NCBI GenBank assembly: GCA_001005265.1
Contig: CP011392.1
Location: 496,001-560,000, forward strand
Source of the DNA: Dehalogenimonas sp. WBC-2
GTDB taxonomy: Bacteria; Chloroflexota; Dehalococcoidia; Dehalococcoidales; Dehalococcoidaceae
Direction of reading: 5' to 3'
Length of the DNA stretch: 64,000 bases
Of the stretch, positions 22,634 through 30,110 are shown in pieces. The notes below the pieces were generated by a model. The model did not search any database. It was not told where the DNA came from and saw nothing but the letters and a program-made list of their open reading frames with translations. Within the stretch, counting starts at the first letter, position 1; each line of letters starts with the position of its first letter. A program made the position numbers and the translations under genes.

Positions 22634-22642
22634 TCACCGTTG

Positions 22643-23152
22643 ATGACCTATCCGCTGGACATTCGGCCCCTGGCTGAATCTGAACTGCCGCAACTGACCC
22701 GCTTGATTCAAGATACTATCAAGCATTCCTACGGAGAGTGCTATCCACCGGGGGTTGTCCGGCTTTTCACCAACTACCACTCGACAGATAAGATTCTCAA
22801 GGATGTGACCACCAGAACCGTTCTGGTCGGCTGGCTGGATAGTATTCCTGTGGCTACCGGCAGTCTCATCGGCGATTATGTCTCCCGTGTCTTTGTGCAT
22901 CGCACATATCAGGCGCGGAGCTACGGTAAAATGATGGCTGAAGAGATAGAAAAACTGGCGGCGGTACGGGATATCAAATGTCTGGAATTGACGCGGCTAT
23001 CGGTTCGCGCCTTTTTTGGCAGACCTGTGGTTATCATGTCGGGTCTCATCAACTGGAACTGGTCGAAGATGAAACCCTGGAATAATATAAAATGTTCAAA
23101 AGGCTTTGACTATCCATCTGTGATCCTTTCTTTTCAGTTTCATAATATATAG
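22643..23152 (+). CDS. GNAT-family acetyltransferase, probably frameshifted near its C-terminus
   Basis: The first 120 residues look like a GNAT domain: N-terminal 'DIRPLAESELPQLTRLI', then 'SRVFVHRTYQARSYGKMMAEEIE', the acetyl-CoA-binding strand-helix. After 'LTRLSVRAFF' the open frame loses family character. Adding one T to the six-T run at 23012-23017 switches the frame to '.FFWQTCGYHVGSHQLEL' ending at 23085, which is the expected GNAT C-terminus (aromatic, GY/GF, then a strand). So it is either a frameshift mutation or a homopolymer sequencing error. Substrate unknown. Confidence 0.75.
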   Translation: MTYPLDIRPLAESELPQLTRLIQDTIKHSYGECYPPGVVRLFTNYHSTDKILKDVTTRTVLVGWLDSIPVATGSLIGDYVSRVFVHRTYQARSYGKMMAEEIEKLAAVRDIKCLELTRLSVRAFFGRPVVIMSGLINWNWSKMKPWNNIKCSKGFDYPSVILSFQFHNI

Positions 23153-23241
23153 ATTTATTTTGACTTGAACCAGAACTGTGTTACTTTGGAATGAGAGCAT
23201 CTAAGTGATGTATGGGAAAAAAACCCAGAAAGAGGTTCGAA

Positions 23242-24219
23242 ATGGGAAAAATCAAAAGGATACTTAACCGCTCGGTAATGATTTGCGTCATTGCCATCGT
23301 AGCCATCGTGTTGCCGTTCGGCTGTTCCTCCGGTGATGAGTCAACTACGCCAACGACAGGCAACGGCGAGGTTTATTTTACGATATCGGATGCTTCAACT
23401 GACCTGCAATCGGTGACCAAGTATGAGGTGACCATTGATAAAGTAGAAGCGCATGTGGAAGGCGGCAGTTGGACGGTAATATCTACCGAGTCCAAAACCT
23501 ATGACCTGATTCAGTTGAAAAATCAAAATCAGATCATGCTGGTCGCGTCATCCAGCATCAAGGCCGCCAATTACGACCGGGTGCGTTGCAATGTAGCCAA
23601 GGCGACAATTACCGACAATACCGGGGTGCATCAGGCGACATTGGTAAAGAACACCTGTGAGTTCGACAGCCGGTTTGAGATTAAATCTGACACCAAGGCC
23701 AGCGTCAATCTTGATTTCTTAGCCGATAAATGCCTGTATCTTACGACCGATGGCAAATATGTCATGGCAACTTCAATCCGTTGTGAAACCCGTAACAGCG
23801 CCCAGATTCAGGTCTCATCTAACAACGAGGTTCAGATTTCCGGTGGCCAAACACAGACCAATGCCCACTACGGCATGGGTATGGACGGGATGATGAAAAG
23901 CGGCTTTGAACTGGCGGCCGATGCCGCCCTCAAAATTGAAGGCAGCGCCGTTGTAGTTATCACTGGTCAGGCAATGTTCTATGGTACGGTAAGTTCAGTC
24001 AATATAGGCAGCCAGACCTTGACCTGCGCCCGTGCGGGTGGTAGTGCCATGACCTTGAATTTTGCTTCCAGCACTCAACTGCTAATTAATGGCACGCTCT
24101 CCCTGTTAGGTCTGGTAGACGTTTCCGGGCAGACAGGCAAACCATGTTGGGTTGTGTACGATACAACCACTAATACCTGCATTAAGGCTTTCATAGGTAC
24201 CGGATTTACGGCTAGTTAG
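23242..24219 (+). CDS. DUF4382 domain-containing lipoprotein
   Basis: About 325 residues from ATG 23242 (AGAGG upstream). Signal peptide with lipobox-like 'PFGC' is followed by a Thr-rich linker and 'GEVYFTISDAS....V..YEVTIDKVEAH', the start of the DUF4382 beta-sandwich domain (about 40-190). The C-terminal part (about 240-325) is a second, less conserved beta-rich region ('YGTVSSVNIGSQTL.C'). It is presumably anchored on the outer face of the membrane; function unknown. A decayed copy of its 3' end is found at 29993-30084. Confidence 0.85.
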   Translation: MGKIKRILNRSVMICVIAIVAIVLPFGCSSGDESTTPTTGNGEVYFTISDASTDLQSVTKYEVTIDKVEAHVEGGSWTVISTESKTYDLIQLKNQNQIMLVASSSIKAANYDRVRCNVAKATITDNTGVHQATLVKNTCEFDSRFEIKSDTKASVNLDFLADKCLYLTTDGKYVMATSIRCETRNSAQIQVSSNNEVQISGGQTQTNAHYGMGMDGMMKSGFELAADAALKIEGSAVVVITGQAMFYGTVSSVNIGSQTLTCARAGGSAMTLNFASSTQLLINGTLSLLGLVDVSGQTGKPCWVVYDTTTNTCIKAFIGTGFTAS

Positions 24220-24241
24220 ATAGTCGGGATAATAGATGGTA

Positions 24242-24277
24242 TGGCCGCGGTGGTAAAGTCCAACTGCCGTCGGACAA
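24242..24277 (+). repeat. 36-base copy of part of the DNRLRE-protein gene
   Basis: Bases 24242-24277 are identical to 27092-27128 in the same orientation except for one missing C. The longer copy lies inside the coding region of the DNRLRE-domain protein (the 'SDGSWDFTTA' segment). The short copy sits just after the DUF4382 stop and encodes nothing. It marks a past rearrangement linking this spot with the surface-protein operon. Confidence 0.8.
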
Positions 24278-24349
24278 CCCTCTTCAACGGAAAATGGCAT
24301 TGACGCTGTTGGTATAAGCGTACTGCACATGGACGTGACCGTTCATTCT

Positions 24350-24387
24350 ACCCATACCTCGGTACTAGATGGTACCGAGGTATGGGT
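24350..24387. terminator. Perfect 16-bp hairpin downstream of the DUF4382 gene
   Basis: ACCCATACCTCGGTAC (24350-24365), 6-base loop TAGATG, GTACCGAGGTATGGGT (24372-24387). It is placed 130 bases after the DUF4382 stop. There is no T-run, so termination in the plus direction would be atypical; a role in message stability or a repeat end is equally possible. The remaining sequence to 24696 shows no gene. Confidence 0.45.
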
Positions 24388-24696
24388 GTATACGTAGTGG
24401 AATCGGTTCCATCAACCGTAGTCCAAGGCAAAGTATCGTGCTGACGGGCATTCCAAGTGCACTATTTTGGCGGTTACAGGAAATACCACACCCTCAATCA
24501 TTTCATTATCCCTCACCATACACCATTCCGACCTGAAATATCACCGGTCAGGAAAGCATACGGTCATCGCTTAGTTCCGGGTGCGCTGCGCTAAATTAAG
24601 TACTCAATTAACATAAAACAAGTATAAGTACCAATTACAATGCCGTTAAGACTATGAAAGAATGAAGTTGGAGTCACAACAAGAAGGAGCATCAAA

Positions 24697-24882
24697 ATGG
24701 AAAAGAACGAAGTAAACGGGAAGATCAAGCAAGCGAAGGGCAAGGTTGAGGAGGAGATTGGCAAAATGAAAGGTGACAAACCGATGCAAATGCGGGGAAA
24801 AAGCGAACAAATAGTTGGCAAAGCCCAGGAGACCATCGGTAAAGTCCAGGGAAATGCCAATAAAGCTATCAAGAAGTTATAG
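24697..24882 (+). CDS. CsbD-family stress protein
   Basis: 61 residues, highly charged and helical, with the family pattern 'VNGKIKQAKGKVEEEIGKMKGD' repeated as 'MRGKSEQIVGKAQETIGK'. GAAGGAG lies ahead of the ATG. CsbD proteins are small cytosolic general-stress proteins of unknown mechanism. It is followed 39 bases later by a DUF1059 gene, and both probably share a transcript ending at the hairpin at 25206-25237. Confidence 0.9.
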   Translation: MEKNEVNGKIKQAKGKVEEEIGKMKGDKPMQMRGKSEQIVGKAQETIGKVQGNANKAIKKL

Positions 24883-24921
24883 TAAACAGAATAATGGTGT
24901 ATTTAAGAAAGGCAGGATAGA

Positions 24922-25146
24922 ATGGCTTCATTTAAATGTAGTGATATTGGCATGAAGTGCGGTTTTGAAGTGAAAGACGATAACGAAAAAGAGTTATTGC
25001 ATCTAATCGGCCATCATGCGGAAGAAACACACGGCATGAAAACTATTCCAGCTGATACCATGGAGAAGATTAATAAAGCTATTAAACCACCGGTTAAAGA
25101 CATGCCATCAGTATCCCACACACACGAAAAACACGATCACCACTAG
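24922..25146 (+). CDS. DUF1059 domain-containing small protein
   Basis: 74 residues beginning 'FKCSDIGMKCGFEVKDDNE' and 'IGHHAEETHGMKTIP', the two signatures of DUF1059, with conserved Cys and His residues that could bind a metal. A His-rich tail (HTHEKHDHH) adds to that impression. Paired with the CsbD gene, so likely stress-related. Function unknown. Confidence 0.88.
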   Translation: MASFKCSDIGMKCGFEVKDDNEKELLHLIGHHAEETHGMKTIPADTMEKINKAIKPPVKDMPSVSHTHEKHDHH

Positions 25147-25205
25147 AAAATAGGGTCAAAAGACAAGTGACCAGGCCAGACTGATGGCCTTACATGTTCA
25201 AAAGA

Positions 25206-25237
25206 GAAGCGCCTGATTAGAAATGACCAGGCGCTTC
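25206..25237 (+). terminator. Hairpin terminator after CsbD/DUF1059
   Basis: GAAGCGCCTG (25206-25215), 12-base loop, CAGGCGCTTC (25228-25237): a perfect 10-bp GC-rich stem followed by ATTACAT. The weak T-run means it is not a strong intrinsic terminator. Its position between two converging transcription units suits a terminator for either side. Confidence 0.55.
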
Positions 25238-25320
25238 ATTACATCATCGCCGATAGACACAACTGGTCTGCGTTTATATTCAAGCCAGTAGTGGCGGCGG
25301 GTTATTGAGGAACTAATCCA

Positions 25321-26634
25321 TCACCCCTGATCCTCTTCATCCTCATGACGCCGTCTTTTTAGCAGGAATAAAATGAAGAAACCGGCCACTGCTACCGCGG
25401 CGATTATGCCGCCAATCAGCGGCCAATTGACTTCATCCGCTGGCGGCGGTACAGGCAGGTCGGTGACGGTAAAACTGCTGTTGAGACTAGCCACTGTCAC
25501 GGTATATACACCGGAAATGTTCTTGATTACGCTGAAAGACGCCTCCTGGTTGCGGCCGGGGTCAACAGTTACTTCCCGGCTGTCGGCCACCACACCGTCG
25601 ATATTGAGTATGACGTTGTAACTGCCGGTTTGGCCGCCGCTGTTGGTCACGACGACAATGACAGTGACCGCATTGCCGACATAGATATGTGTCGGGGTGA
25701 CGGTCAAACCGGTGACCGTCAGCACCGCCGGGGATTCCGGCGGCAACGGTTCATAGCCGATAACGGCCAAGGACATGAAGCGCCGCGGCCGGACGGTGAT
25801 AGTGTTGTTCTGGCTGTCAACCACCGATTCCAGTTCCACCCACAGGCCGGTTTGGTCGTCATAGTAGGCGATGACCAGTGACTCTTCATCGAAACCGGGC
25901 GGCAGGTCCGCCGGGTTGTAGTGCAAGGTGAGTATCAGCGGCGGATCGAAAGTAGCGCCGTGCGGTTCAAAGTCATATACAGGACCGATCAGCTCCGCCT
26001 GCGGCGGCGGTGGCGGCGGTTCCGGTAACGGCACGATGGAAATCAGCGTCAGCGGCTGCCCGTCGCCGGTCAGGCCGGTAGTGTCCTCGGGAATGGTCAG
26101 GCCAGCCAGACCGTCTTCAGAGGTGACGACCACCGGCCCGGTGAAACGGCCACCAGCGGTGACCATGCCGCTGACATCGGCGGTACCCGGCGGTAACGGC
26201 GTGGTCGGCGGCGGCGGTTCTTCCGGCGGCAGTGCCGGGGTGACGAAGGTGTAATCCAAGGAAACGGCGATGGATTCGCCGTCGCCGGTAAAGACGGACC
26301 TGACCCGGAAATGGTAGGTGGTGCCGGGGGCCAGCCCGGTCAGGCTGACGCTGTGACTCAGGACAAGACTGGTATCAACCGTTGTCTGACGGGTGTAATC
26401 GGCGGTATCAGCATGGGCCGCCGTACCGTAAAATACCTGCGAAGTAGCGGCGGCATTGGTCTGCCAGGAAATGACGGCGCCGGAGTAGCCGATATTGGAA
26501 ACGGCGACACCGGTGATCAGCAGCGGTTCGGTGCTGGCTTCCTGTCCGGCAGCATAAGCCGGCAGGGCCGGAGCCAGGAGCAATATCATCAGAGTCAGGG
26601 CCAGGAGGAGACGGCCGAATCTGTTATTGTTCAT
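25321..26634 (-). CDS. Secreted, membrane-anchored fibronectin-III/CARDB-like surface protein
   Basis: 437 residues. Signal peptide (cleavage after 'AYA'), one fibronectin type III domain (about 38-135, 'ISWQTNAAATSQVFYGT...GLAPGTTYHFRVRS'), Pro-rich linkers, a middle beta domain, a CARDB-like domain (about 310-395, 'VTNSGGQTGSYNVILNIDGVV'), and a C-terminal membrane helix with the basic stop 'LLKRRRHEDEEDQG'. It is therefore anchored at the C-terminus with most of the chain outside. Its start overlaps the stop of the preceding gene (ATGA), making it the last gene of a four-gene operon. Confidence 0.85.
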   Translation of the reverse strand: MNNNRFGRLLLALTLMILLLAPALPAYAAGQEASTEPLLITGVAVSNIGYSGAVISWQTNAAATSQVFYGTAAHADTADYTRQTTVDTSLVLSHSVSLTGLAPGTTYHFRVRSVFTGDGESIAVSLDYTFVTPALPPEEPPPPTTPLPPGTADVSGMVTAGGRFTGPVVVTSEDGLAGLTIPEDTTGLTGDGQPLTLISIVPLPEPPPPPPQAELIGPVYDFEPHGATFDPPLILTLHYNPADLPPGFDEESLVIAYYDDQTGLWVELESVVDSQNNTITVRPRRFMSLAVIGYEPLPPESPAVLTVTGLTVTPTHIYVGNAVTVIVVVTNSGGQTGSYNVILNIDGVVADSREVTVDPGRNQEASFSVIKNISGVYTVTVASLNSSFTVTDLPVPPPADEVNWPLIGGIIAAVAVAGFFILFLLKRRRHEDEEDQG

Positions 26635-28136
26635 GGCGTTTCACCGAGGATAGTAATCGTCGAGGTGCCCGACTTGAGGGCCACGCTGCTCAAGGTGATG
26701 GTGAGATAGAGGTCCTTCTGAGCGGCTGCCCCATCCGTTGCCTTGCCGATGGTCACGCCGGTGCTCTGATTTGAACCGAAAGTGACGCTACCGGTAACCG
26801 CAGCGGCATCGGCGCAGGCCGCTCCCTGGTCGTTGACGAGAAAATACTCAGCGGTGACGATGCCGTTGCTGAATTCCGTAATGTTATACCAGACGATATA
26901 GGCGATATCAGCCGTATTGACCAGAGTTACGACCGGTTTGGCGGTCCCGGCATCACCGAACAGTTGCGTCTGGCTGTGGTCGTTGGCCGGGTTGGTCACA
27001 GCGGTGCCCGGGGAGGCGGCGGGAAAAGTGATATCGGCGACCGCAAGCAAATAGGTCTGGTCCCGGACCTCAATGGAGGCCGAGCCGGTGGTGGCCGCGG
27101 TGGTAAAGTCCCAACTGCCGTCGGACAAGCCGCTCCAATTGGCGCCGTCGTAGACCCTGACCCGCCAGAAATACTGAGTACCTCCCGAGAGGGTAATGCC
27201 TACGCTGTAGGTGATATCGCCGCCGCTGTCCCAGGGGCCACCGGTACTATAATCGGTGACGTCAATCAGCGGTGAGGTAAAGTCCGAATTATTGTCCAAC
27301 TGGATATCGAATTGAGTAGCACTATCAGATTCAGGGTCGGAGTAGTTGAAGACCAGGTCGGGGCTGGTACTGACACCTGAGGCACCGTCAGCCGGGGCGA
27401 TCAGGGTGGGAATATCCGGGGGCTGGTTGACAGGGGCATAGGTTACTTCCAGTTTAGGCCAGAAGTCGCTGTCGGCTGATTCACGGCTGTTGAAGTAGAT
27501 ATACTGCGCCGATACCAATGTTTCATCAGAATCCTTGATAAGGAAATGGGCGTCTATACTGTTGTCGTAGGCGTACTGGACCTGGGCGGTAACCGTCCAT
27601 TCCATCCAGACATCTTGGCCTGCCGGCACGTTGGTGGTGACGCCATCATCAGTAGTGTAATCTCCACCGGGCGAAGCCCATGCTAAAGAACCATCCTGCC
27701 GGGAATTCCATGAAGCCGAACCGGTCTCTACAGCGCCATCGGCGGTACCCTCCACCCAGTCGGTTGAGGTAACCCGGTAGGCCCCGTAGATTCTTCCCAG
27801 AAGAGTGATGTTTGTATTGATATACAACCTCAGGGTGGCACTGCTGATGACCTGACCGGCAGGCAGGCTGTCAACAGCGAATTTGAGTAGTATTCTCTGG
27901 TTATCGTCAATCAGACTCTGAACCCGCAGGTCAACTGCGCCGCCGTAGTTATTATTGTCCATAGCAGTTCCTAATACTAACTGCCGTATGTAAGTATCGC
28001 CGGTAGTATCCAGGGTAACGTCAGCCGCCGCAACCGGCCGCGGCAAAGAGGCGAAAGATACGACAGAAGCCGCCGCCAACAGCACCAGCGCCAGCCAGAC
28101 ATGCAGGGTTTTACGCCATTTTCCGTATCTTGTCAT
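26631..28136 (-). CDS. Secreted DNRLRE-domain protein with fibronectin-like and GETP C-terminal domains
   Basis: 501 residues. Signal peptide, then a DNRLRE-type beta-sandwich (about 38-230: 'DTYIRQL', 'NYGGAVDLRVQSL', 'RILLKFAVDSLP'), a fibronectin-like unit with 'ISSATLRL'-style and 'GTQYFWRVRVYDG' signatures (about 235-345), and a C-terminal domain ending 'STITILGETP'. That last domain is homologous to the whole mature part of the protein at 28872-29423. No membrane anchor or LPxTG motif is seen. CGGAG precedes the ATG; the stop overlaps the next start. Confidence 0.85.
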   Translation of the reverse strand: MTRYGKWRKTLHVWLALVLLAAASVVSFASLPRPVAAADVTLDTTGDTYIRQLVLGTAMDNNNYGGAVDLRVQSLIDDNQRILLKFAVDSLPAGQVISSATLRLYINTNITLLGRIYGAYRVTSTDWVEGTADGAVETGSASWNSRQDGSLAWASPGGDYTTDDGVTTNVPAGQDVWMEWTVTAQVQYAYDNSIDAHFLIKDSDETLVSAQYIYFNSRESADSDFWPKLEVTYAPVNQPPDIPTLIAPADGASGVSTSPDLVFNYSDPESDSATQFDIQLDNNSDFTSPLIDVTDYSTGGPWDSGGDITYSVGITLSGGTQYFWRVRVYDGANWSGLSDGSWDFTTAATTGSASIEVRDQTYLLAVADITFPAASPGTAVTNPANDHSQTQLFGDAGTAKPVVTLVNTADIAYIVWYNITEFSNGIVTAEYFLVNDQGAACADAAAVTGSVTFGSNQSTGVTIGKATDGAAAQKDLYLTITLSSVALKSGTSTITILGETP

Positions 28137-28166
28137 GACTTTACTCCGCGTTTCGTTACTTCCTGT

Positions 28167-28805
28167 TCAACGGCTGCTGCCAGCGCCTCTCAGTTTCAGA
28201 ATCACACCCAGCAGAACAAGGATGACCAGCGCCAGGACGATGACCAGCAGGTTGTCGCTGAAAAAATTGGATGACGATCCCGGCTGGTCCTGATCCGGCG
28301 GCAATGTTGCCGCGGCGTCCTCCAGGACAACGACCGAGACCGGAATAAGCAGACCGGAATAAACATTGCCGCCGCTAGGGGTGTCCTTGAATACCACGTA
28401 GCTGCGGCGCTCAGCGGAATGACCGCTCTGCCCGGCAGTGGCGGCAGTGGCACCCCACAGACCGGGAGCGGCATCAGCGGGGATGTTGACACGGATATTG
28501 AAGGTAATGCTTTGATCTTTGGTAATAACGTATTCCTCAGGCTCAAAGGTGATCCAGGAGGTGATATCCATGCGCGCATCATCGCCGTCTGTCTGTTTGT
28601 AATATGCGTACCAAAAGCCATCCCGCGTCTCAGCTTCGTTACCTTGCAAGGTTACCGCCACCGTCAAGCTCTCACCGGCATGACCCTCCAGATTGCACAG
28701 CGCAACATGGTCAACCCCGGTGGCCGCCGCCGGTGACGGAAAACTGAAAAGCCACCCGGCCAACAGCGAAACAACCGCCAGCGTGTTCACAAACCATTTA
28801 AGCAT
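28167..28805 (-). CDS. Membrane-anchored secreted protein with a single Ig-like domain
   Basis: 212 residues. Signal peptide ('PAAATG'), a beta-rich ectodomain (about 32-170) containing 'SWITFEPEEYVITKDQSITF' and 'VNIPADAAPGLWGA', a linker and a C-terminal membrane helix (about 182-203) with basic tail. The ectodomain wording resembles the DUF916/NEW3-type Ig-like domains of surface proteins, including those coding with WxL proteins in Firmicutes; this is similarity of pattern only. GGAGG four bases before the ATG fixes the start. Confidence 0.8.
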   Translation of the reverse strand: MLKWFVNTLAVVSLLAGWLFSFPSPAAATGVDHVALCNLEGHAGESLTVAVTLQGNEAETRDGFWYAYYKQTDGDDARMDITSWITFEPEEYVITKDQSITFNIRVNIPADAAPGLWGATAATAGQSGHSAERRSYVVFKDTPSGGNVYSGLLIPVSVVVLEDAAATLPPDQDQPGSSSNFFSDNLLVIVLALVILVLLGVILKLRGAGSSR

Positions 28806-28871
28806 CTATCCTCCGGGGTGGGGAGAAGAATATTGCCCGGCGGCTCCCCACCCCACCGACCGTCTTTACTA

Positions 28872-29423
28872 TTACGGGGTTTCACCCAATACGCTGAGTG
28901 TCGAGGTGCCACTAATTGAAGTGACAGCACCTAAGACCACCTGTAAGTAGAGGTCTCCATATGCACCATTGGCAATTGTTAAACCAGTTACAACTGGTGA
29001 ACCAGTCGAGAGTGTTTCCTCGACTGCAGCAACAGTTGTCGTCCCTCCTGCTATCAGCTCATAATTCTCAGACGACACAATACCGTTAGTCCAACTCGTG
29101 ATCTCCAGCGTAACAGCAAGGGCACCACCGGTTTCATTCTTAATGCGTACCACCGGTTCACTGGCAGACACATCAAGCACCTGTGGATCACTACTGGTAT
29201 CAACATTATTATACGGCGCAGATACGGTAGCACCGGGCGCCCCTGCGGGGAAGGTGATGGTGATTATTGCTGCGTCAGTCGCTTTGGCTACAACCAGCAG
29301 ACTGGTAGAAGCAGTGGTTGTAGCTTCCTGACCGGAGGTGTTATCGGCCACTACGGCGGTAGGTAATGTCATGGCCAGGGTCAGTGCCATAACAGTTGCC
29401 AGAACCAAGATCTTATTTTTCAT
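28872..29423 (-). CDS. Small secreted protein made of the GETP domain
   Basis: About 183 residues from ATG 29423, which has AAGGAGAGG upstream. Signal peptide, then one domain with 'ITITFPAGAPGATVSAP', 'VVRIKNETGGALAVTLEITSW', 'GIVSSENYELI' and the terminus 'STLSVLGETP'. The DNRLRE protein (26631-28136) ends with the same domain. The N-terminal hydrophobic core and conserved C-terminus suggest an assembled surface subunit or a matched pair, but this is inference. First gene of the operon. Confidence 0.82.
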   Translation of the reverse strand: MKNKILVLATVMALTLAMTLPTAVVADNTSGQEATTTASTSLLVVAKATDAAIITITFPAGAPGATVSAPYNNVDTSSDPQVLDVSASEPVVRIKNETGGALAVTLEITSWTNGIVSSENYELIAGGTTTVAAVEETLSTGSPVVTGLTIANGAYGDLYLQVVLGAVTSISGTSTLSVLGETP

Positions 29424-29992
29424 TTTCCTCTCCTTATTATTGGTCATGGTTATTTCCAGGCCGTATCTTTTTCTGTTTGTGTGTCGATATTCTCCTCCTT
29501 TGTCCTTAACTCAGATAGCACCTATTGCCAGGAATTCACCAGGCGAATAAGAAGTCCGGGAGATAGCGAAGCGTTTAGCAGGAGACAAGTATGCCGGGAA
29601 GCAGTACACACGGCAGGCACTAATTGGTATCGGGAATCAGGAGAGTTCAGGGCCAGGTCAATGCCGTCTGCGGCATGGTGGAGGATGGAGGGGGCGCGGA
29701 GTACCGGGTAACCATATCGGGAACCAGCCTTCATCATGGAGGTCCCCGCCAGTTCAATATTTTAGATACAGTCTTCATAATGCCCTCAGACTGATCTCAA
29801 GTGAAGTTTTAATACTTCCTCAAGATAGTACGTCTGTCTTAGTATGAATGTCAATACCCTTCTTAAAATTATTTTGACAGTTATTTATTGAGCCCTGGCT
29901 GTCTCAAACCCTTCATCCAACGATTGTGAATTTAAACAACACTATGATATATGATGACCTCTTACCAGATTCTTACCAGAATTTATCCAATT

Positions 29993-30084
29993 GGGCAGGA
30001 CAGGCAACCATTCCGGGTTGTATGCGGTATAAACGCTAATACCTGCGTTAAACTGTAATCAGCGGCGGGTTTACGGCCGGTTAG
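29993..30084 (+). pseudogene. Decayed copy of the DUF4382 gene 3' end
   Basis: Bases 29993-30084 align with the last 93 bases of the DUF4382 gene (24127-24219): shared blocks include 'gacaggcaa', 'gggttgt', 'ctaatacctgc', 'tta' and 'tttacggc..gttag', with scattered substitutions and small gaps. No frame is left. It sits just downstream of mutL, on the far side of the surface operon from the intact gene. The rest of 29424-29992 shows no gene. Confidence 0.7.
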
Positions 30085-30110
30085 GGGACGAGAGAATCAG
30101 TGAAGGTTTC

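Follow-up and report, generated by a model that had tools for sequence, protein, structure and literature searches.

Whether four tightly packed genes in Dehalogenimonas sp. WBC-2 encode a cell-surface assembly yet to be described is a question raised by an earlier, sequence-only reading of the window, the 64,000-nucleotide stretch analysed here from a 1.73 Mb genome held in a single contig. That reading had proposed a secreted four-gene cassette, and four open reading frames are indeed present in the proposed order on the minus strand (29447–25321; Table 1), with N-terminal hydrophobic leaders in all four products. The spacings from gene 1 to gene 4 are 66 bp, 30 bp, and an overlap of 4 bp, and a consensus scan places a terminator-like hairpin about 84 bp past gene 4; an Rfam search of the cassette region gave no match. 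The longest open reading frame for gene 1 begins at 29447, and there is an ATG at 29423 with AGGAGAGG just upstream; because this is a strong ribosome-binding sequence, the start is very likely 29423 and not 29447. The products of genes 2 and 4 had been described as C-terminally anchored, which agrees with the strong hydrophobic helices near their ends (KD values of 3.31 and 2.75, respectively). Their proposed Ig-like ectodomains are apparent in gene 4, which scores above the Pfam cut-offs for fn3 (31.2 bits) and Pur_ac_phosph_N (45.5 bits) and narrowly below that for CARDB, and can be recognized in gene 2 only remotely (see below). The large gene 3 product scores well above cut-off against both NF033679 (DNRLRE; 74.7 bits, cut-off 34) and PF24517 (CBM96; 57.9 bits, cut-off 26).

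Table 1. Positions of the cassette genes, their parts and flanking features, in window coordinates unless a contig handle (L078, L079, L081, L083) is given.
Feature	Position	Strand	Basis
Gene 1, small GETP protein: signal peptide followed by a QEATT segment and a single GETP domain	28872..29423	-	ORF, ribosome-binding site, orthologs 53–57% identical
Gene 1 GETP domain	28875..29324	-	alignments
Gene 1 mature N-terminal QEATT segment (QEAST variant)	29316..29330	-	motif scan
Gene 2, exported Ig-like domain and C-terminal membrane helix, probable remote WxLIP PGBD (DUF916) relative	28167..28805	-	
Gene 2 C-terminal helix	about 28197–28253	-	hydropathy
Gene 3, large GETP protein: CBM96/DNRLRE, fn3-like middle, C-terminal GETP	26631..28136	-	
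Gene 3 CBM96/DNRLRE part	about 27441–28019	-	profile matches
Gene 3 GETP domain, large-type clade	26634..27098	-	alignment, tree
Gene 4, exported fn3/CARDB protein, C-terminal membrane helix, QEAST mature N-terminus	25321..26634	-	
Gene 4 C-terminal membrane helix	about 25363–25419	-	hydropathy
Gene 4 QEAST motif, mature N-terminus	26530..26544	-	motif scan
Terminator-like hairpin, 12 pairs, T-rich tail, closing the gene cluster	25206..25237	-	consensus scan only
Promoter-like site TTGACA-18-TACTAT upstream of gene 1	29825..29854	-	consensus match only, weak
Insertion: cassette with DUF4382, CsbD and DUF1059 genes	23153..30110	.	two congeners lack it between GNAT and mutL
Dockerin protein and two cohesin-like membrane proteins	L078:12242-16042, L079:475-3879, L081:8790-12566, L083:8173-11261		beside large GETP gene

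The small gene 1 protein had been described as consisting only of the domain that ends the large DNRLRE protein, and alignment of the two bears this out, with a common domain of about 150 residues (38% identity over 158 aa, E=7e-20). Both proteins finish in LGETP as claimed, and these are the only two places in the window where this ending occurs, with none expected from shuffles. We refer to the domain as GETP. Searches of Pfam, NCBIfam, PHROGs and PDB sequences place it in no family, and the profile search that the earlier reading had recommended returned no known pilin, S-layer or TasA family, including no match to TasA/camelysin or pilin profiles in Pfam, NCBIfam or PDB sequences; as judged by sequence comparison, GETP is a previously unclassified domain. 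Two AlphaFold2 models have pLDDT values of 42 and 55, and the better of these, built from eight sequences, is itself weak (pTM 0.54); searches of PDB and viral folds with the models had no match at E≤0.001. VIA-align of the pLDDT 55 model gave rows for FimH, Csu, Pyrobaculum bundling-pilus and Sulfolobus thread subunits at Z 6–6.7, among unrelated folds and under a highest Z of 7.0, which is at the level of noise. We dropped these pilin rows as evidence, since the poorer model gave other folds with equal or higher scores (Z up to 7.7), and because the models are too weak and their VIA-align rows differ, no fold is claimed for GETP.

Relatives of the domain are few. A C-terminal DNA pattern ([ST]T-hydrophobic-[ST]-hydrophobic-LGETP-stop) run over a collection of 85,000 genomes gave six matches, five of which are clear GETP domains from four genomes: a Nomurabacteria, a Falkowbacteria (two contigs), a Patescibacteria group bacterium and an unclassified bacterium. 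The sixth, in an Elusimicrobia (L069), is a chance match. This pattern alone worked; when the two GETP domains of the window were back-translated and scanned as profiles, no relative emerged from the 85,000 genomes, nor from plasmids, phages or viral contigs. Searches through 333 genomes from the Patescibacteria side, 111 belonging to one order and 10 to a second recovered GETP in the query genomes alone. Nor was it found in seven congeners, 33 further relatives, or even samples of 400 genomes from the phylum and 393 from the class (roughly 750 others); weak profile matches in one other member of the class (L006, L007) we judged from their sequence, rather than by a profile test, to be MreC-like. 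Gene 2 was not found in 20 relatives, and relatives of gene 2 or GETP are absent from the viral contigs. The GETP family is thus rare.

Each of the four Patescibacteria-type genomes encodes exactly two GETP domains, one within a protein of about 200 residues and the other closing a large protein. In a tree of the five small-type and five large-type domains these form two clades with 100/100 support, and one window copy falls in each; identity to the window copy is 53–57% within the small type, 50–56% within the large type, and 34–47% across types. The duplication is therefore older than the split of the lineages, and the pair has moved together as a unit. Since both window copies fall outside the rest, the recent donor is not among these four genomes. 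Gene order is likewise shared. In the window, and in all three other loci where the contig continues, gene 2 directly follows the small gene with gaps of 20–66 bp, and the Patescibacterial gene 2 proteins are 43–49% identical to that of the window. The large gene comes after gene 2, sometimes with an intervening gene; one example is a beta-lactamase-family gene (PF13354; L078:7178-8143) in genome G758, and a second is a small exported protein in G759 (L079:6247-6831), which has QEATT right after its leader. The neighbourhood check suggested by the earlier reading thus shows that distant genomes keep the small gene, gene 2 and the large gene in an unchanged order, although the sequence of gene 4 is not conserved. 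Because these three genes recur in order in ultra-small Patescibacteria, they point to an undescribed surface assembly moving between distant bacteria. The earlier suggestion of such an assembly thus gains support from the co-occurrence of the three genes and from a domain that matches no known family. The three-gene set is apparently mobile between distant bacteria, which implies neither a direction nor a date of transfer.

The position following the large gene is filled differently. In all four Patescibacteria-type genomes the large gene is adjoined by that of an exported dockerin-type protein, for which the Pfam dockerin match is above cut-off in two and below it in two, and beyond this are cohesin-like membrane proteins whose cohesin matches are below cut-off. 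In the window this position is occupied by gene 4. Compared over its full length, gene 4 does not directly resemble the dockerin protein of Falkowbacteria, and its kinship with the Patescibacterial proteins is limited to the leader and the motif that follows it (28 aa, E=0.001), such that it is conserved in position and mature N-terminus and not in sequence. The motif lies just past the leader in gene 1 (QEATT), gene 4 (QEAST), all four Patescibacterial small proteins (QEAST, QQAST or QSAST) and four dockerin-type proteins (QEAST or QEART), and it is missing from this position in the large proteins and in gene 2. Eleven of its 13 occurrences in 572 kb fall inside cassettes, a count that is descriptive because the expression was composed after the sequences had been seen. 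The segment is neither strongly hydrophobic nor alternating. Possession of the common motif ties gene 4 to the system despite its otherwise different sequence.

The sequence-only reading had likened the cassette to WxL-type surface systems without clear homology, and this comparison holds unequally for its parts. The best Pfam match of gene 2 is PF06030 (DUF916/PGBD), at 15.2 bits and under the cut-off of 27.3. An hhalign comparison of the gene 2 family with 20 Chloroflexota WxLIP proteins, taken from WxL cassettes found in the present analysis, gave 90.5% over 78 columns, with shuffled and reversed nulls at 0.1–0.3%, whereas GETP compared with 24 Chloroflexota WxL-type C-terminal sequences gave 0.1%, the same as shuffled nulls. 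PF13731 (WxL) matches nowhere in the genome and none of the GETP members, and Trp-x-Leu motifs are found in none of the ten GETP domains. We therefore set aside GETP as a WxL relative. Gene 2 is probably a remote relative of the first domain (DUF916) of WxL-interacting proteins, a closer relationship than had been noted, while the displayed domain is not detectably related to WxL. The organization is nonetheless that of the WxL clusters of Lactobacillales and Bacillales (where WxLIP is DUF916-DUF3324-TM), in that a small domain-only protein and a large protein with binding domains followed by the same C-terminal domain sit beside an Ig-type protein that has a helix at its C-terminus; GETP takes the place of WxL. 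The cassette differs in that gene 2 has one Ig-sized domain followed by the helix, with no DUF3324/HBD match in Pfam, and in having an extra, QEAST-tagged fourth gene. AlphaFold2 predicts that a hairpin strand of WxLIP is inserted into WxL (PMC10599100), a precedent for the donor-strand linkage considered below.

We note separately that Chloroflexota genomes hold WxL-type cassettes of their own, with a small WxL, a WxLIP and often a large WxL protein (L029-L048; e.g. L033:1444-3408, L035:7178-10828 and L048:9606-17111). PF06030 is above cut-off in 14 of 400 Chloroflexota genomes and PF13731 in several neighbours, in contrast to the description of WxL proteins as almost entirely from Lactobacillales and Bacillales. 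Our literature searches turned up no report of a WxL-type system for Patescibacteria, nor anything relevant about WxL in Chloroflexota. A weak GETP match beside one Chloroflexota WxLIP gene (L035) falls on an unrelated protein.

These comparisons raise the possibility of a WxL-style platform, in which GETP would attach non-covalently to the cell wall or S-layer and anchor the binding part of the large protein, with no polymer being formed. The logic of small, anchored and large genes is the same as in WxL clusters (PMC10599100), and gene 2 is related to the proposed peptidoglycan-binding DUF916 domain. However, GETP has no detectable kinship with WxL, and Dehalogenimonas and Dehalococcoides are reported to be without peptidoglycan (PMC10284905), such that the host of the cassette, unlike those of WxL clusters, probably lacks it and a peptidoglycan-binding role is doubtful here. 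We consider such a platform unlikely, if deserving of serious thought.

The reading we prefer, with about an even chance of being correct, is that the cassette encodes a cell-surface assembly of small and large GETP proteins with the gene 2 product as a holder and that of gene 4 as a base, most likely linked by donor strands. The small protein would be the abundant displayed subunit, and the large protein would use the same platform to present a part that binds carbohydrates or surfaces. Gene 2, tethered in the membrane, would hold or fold GETP domains at the cell surface, as is thought for WxLIP with WxL, and gene 4, through its QEAST segment and membrane helix, would tie the assembly to the cell. 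The step of which we are least certain is the linkage itself: the small protein and gene 4 would each insert a free N-terminal segment into the next GETP domain by donor-strand complementation; gene 4 would then be a donor-only base and the large protein, because it lacks the N-terminal segment, an acceptor-only tip. FimH-type tips are a donor-strand parallel for such a tip protein. It is the distribution of the motif, the sole basis for this step, that suggests donor-strand linkage, and it parallels the TasA/TapA pattern, in which TapA and TasA are almost the same over their first five residues and TapA donates its strand (PMC10151520); archaeal threads are a further parallel (PMC9715654). 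Donor-strand filaments as a group (TasA/TapA, archaeal bundling pili and threads, chaperone-usher pili) resemble the cassette in having a secreted subunit whose N-terminal segment is free, an accessory protein that carries the same segment, and an adhesin with a binding part and a C-terminal subunit-like domain without it. The cassette differs in having no sequence kinship to them and no usher, its fold is not established, and gene 2 would act as a membrane-tethered holder. A fuller version, of an undescribed, horizontally mobile donor-strand filament in Patescibacteria and one probable dehalogenating member of the Chloroflexota, with a polymer of small GETP proteins, a carbohydrate-binding large GETP tip, a QEAST membrane base and a DUF916-type holder, perhaps mediating cell-to-cell contact, is speculative and we regard it as unlikely to hold.

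What is new is the unclassified GETP domain in a rare, conserved, predicted surface system; the plan of small and large proteins plus an anchored partner is already known from WxL. This suggests that the WxL logic, with short and long copies of a display domain and a DUF916-type anchored partner, is a general plan that can be filled by different domains. How the surfaces of Patescibacteria make contact with their hosts is poorly understood; since the cassette is common to Patescibacteria and a distant bacterium, it offers a concrete and testable surface system for both.

The genes beyond the large protein bring in a different proposal, a substrate-capture scaffold akin to a minimal cellulosome, in which GETP and gene 2 would form the base, and CBM96 together with dockerin and cohesin would catch polysaccharide or other cells. 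CBM96 is present in gene 3, and Patescibacterial cassettes continue into dockerin and cohesin-like membrane proteins as in cohesin-dockerin surface complexes, but the window cassette has neither domain in Pfam searches, and no hydrolase or other catalytic subunit was identified among the scanned cassettes. We think it improbable. Still less likely is that GETP is a C-terminal sorting tag for an export or attachment enzyme, as in T9SS or PEP-CTERM systems, with the small protein a tag-only product. GETP does lie at the extreme C-terminus of every carrier, with a conserved end; however, the final residues vary among relatives (LGES, LGEAE, LGEAL), the conserved unit is 150 residues rather than a short tag, no hydrophobic or basic tail follows it, and a genome has just two carriers, a small and a large one, whereas sorting tags are borne by many proteins.

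The cassette lies within a larger insertion. In two congeners (G004, G005) the GNAT and mutL genes are 2 bp apart and in the window they are separated by 7 kb, so the cassette is most simply a lineage-specific insertion; in the remaining five congeners mutL has different neighbours. That unrelated surface genes were grouped by chance in this genomic island, alongside its other small genes, is scarcely credible given that distant genomes share the order of the three genes and that the small and large clades run in parallel.

On the opposite strand of the same insertion (23212–25146) are genes for a DUF4382 lipoprotein-like, a CsbD-like and a DUF1059 protein. Beside it, the GNAT-like gene (22640–23152) has a C-terminal end unlike that of its relatives; the gene gives no Pfam match at 1e-5 and may have undergone a frameshift or truncation. 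The end of the DUF4382 gene (24127–24185) is repeated at 29993–30051 (73%), between gene 1 and mutL, such that the cassette is bracketed by related fragments. A near-identical pair of about 46 bp is also present, at 24242–24287 after the DUF4382 gene and at 27092–27138 in the fn3 end of gene 3, and the former is probably what remains of a degraded second copy.
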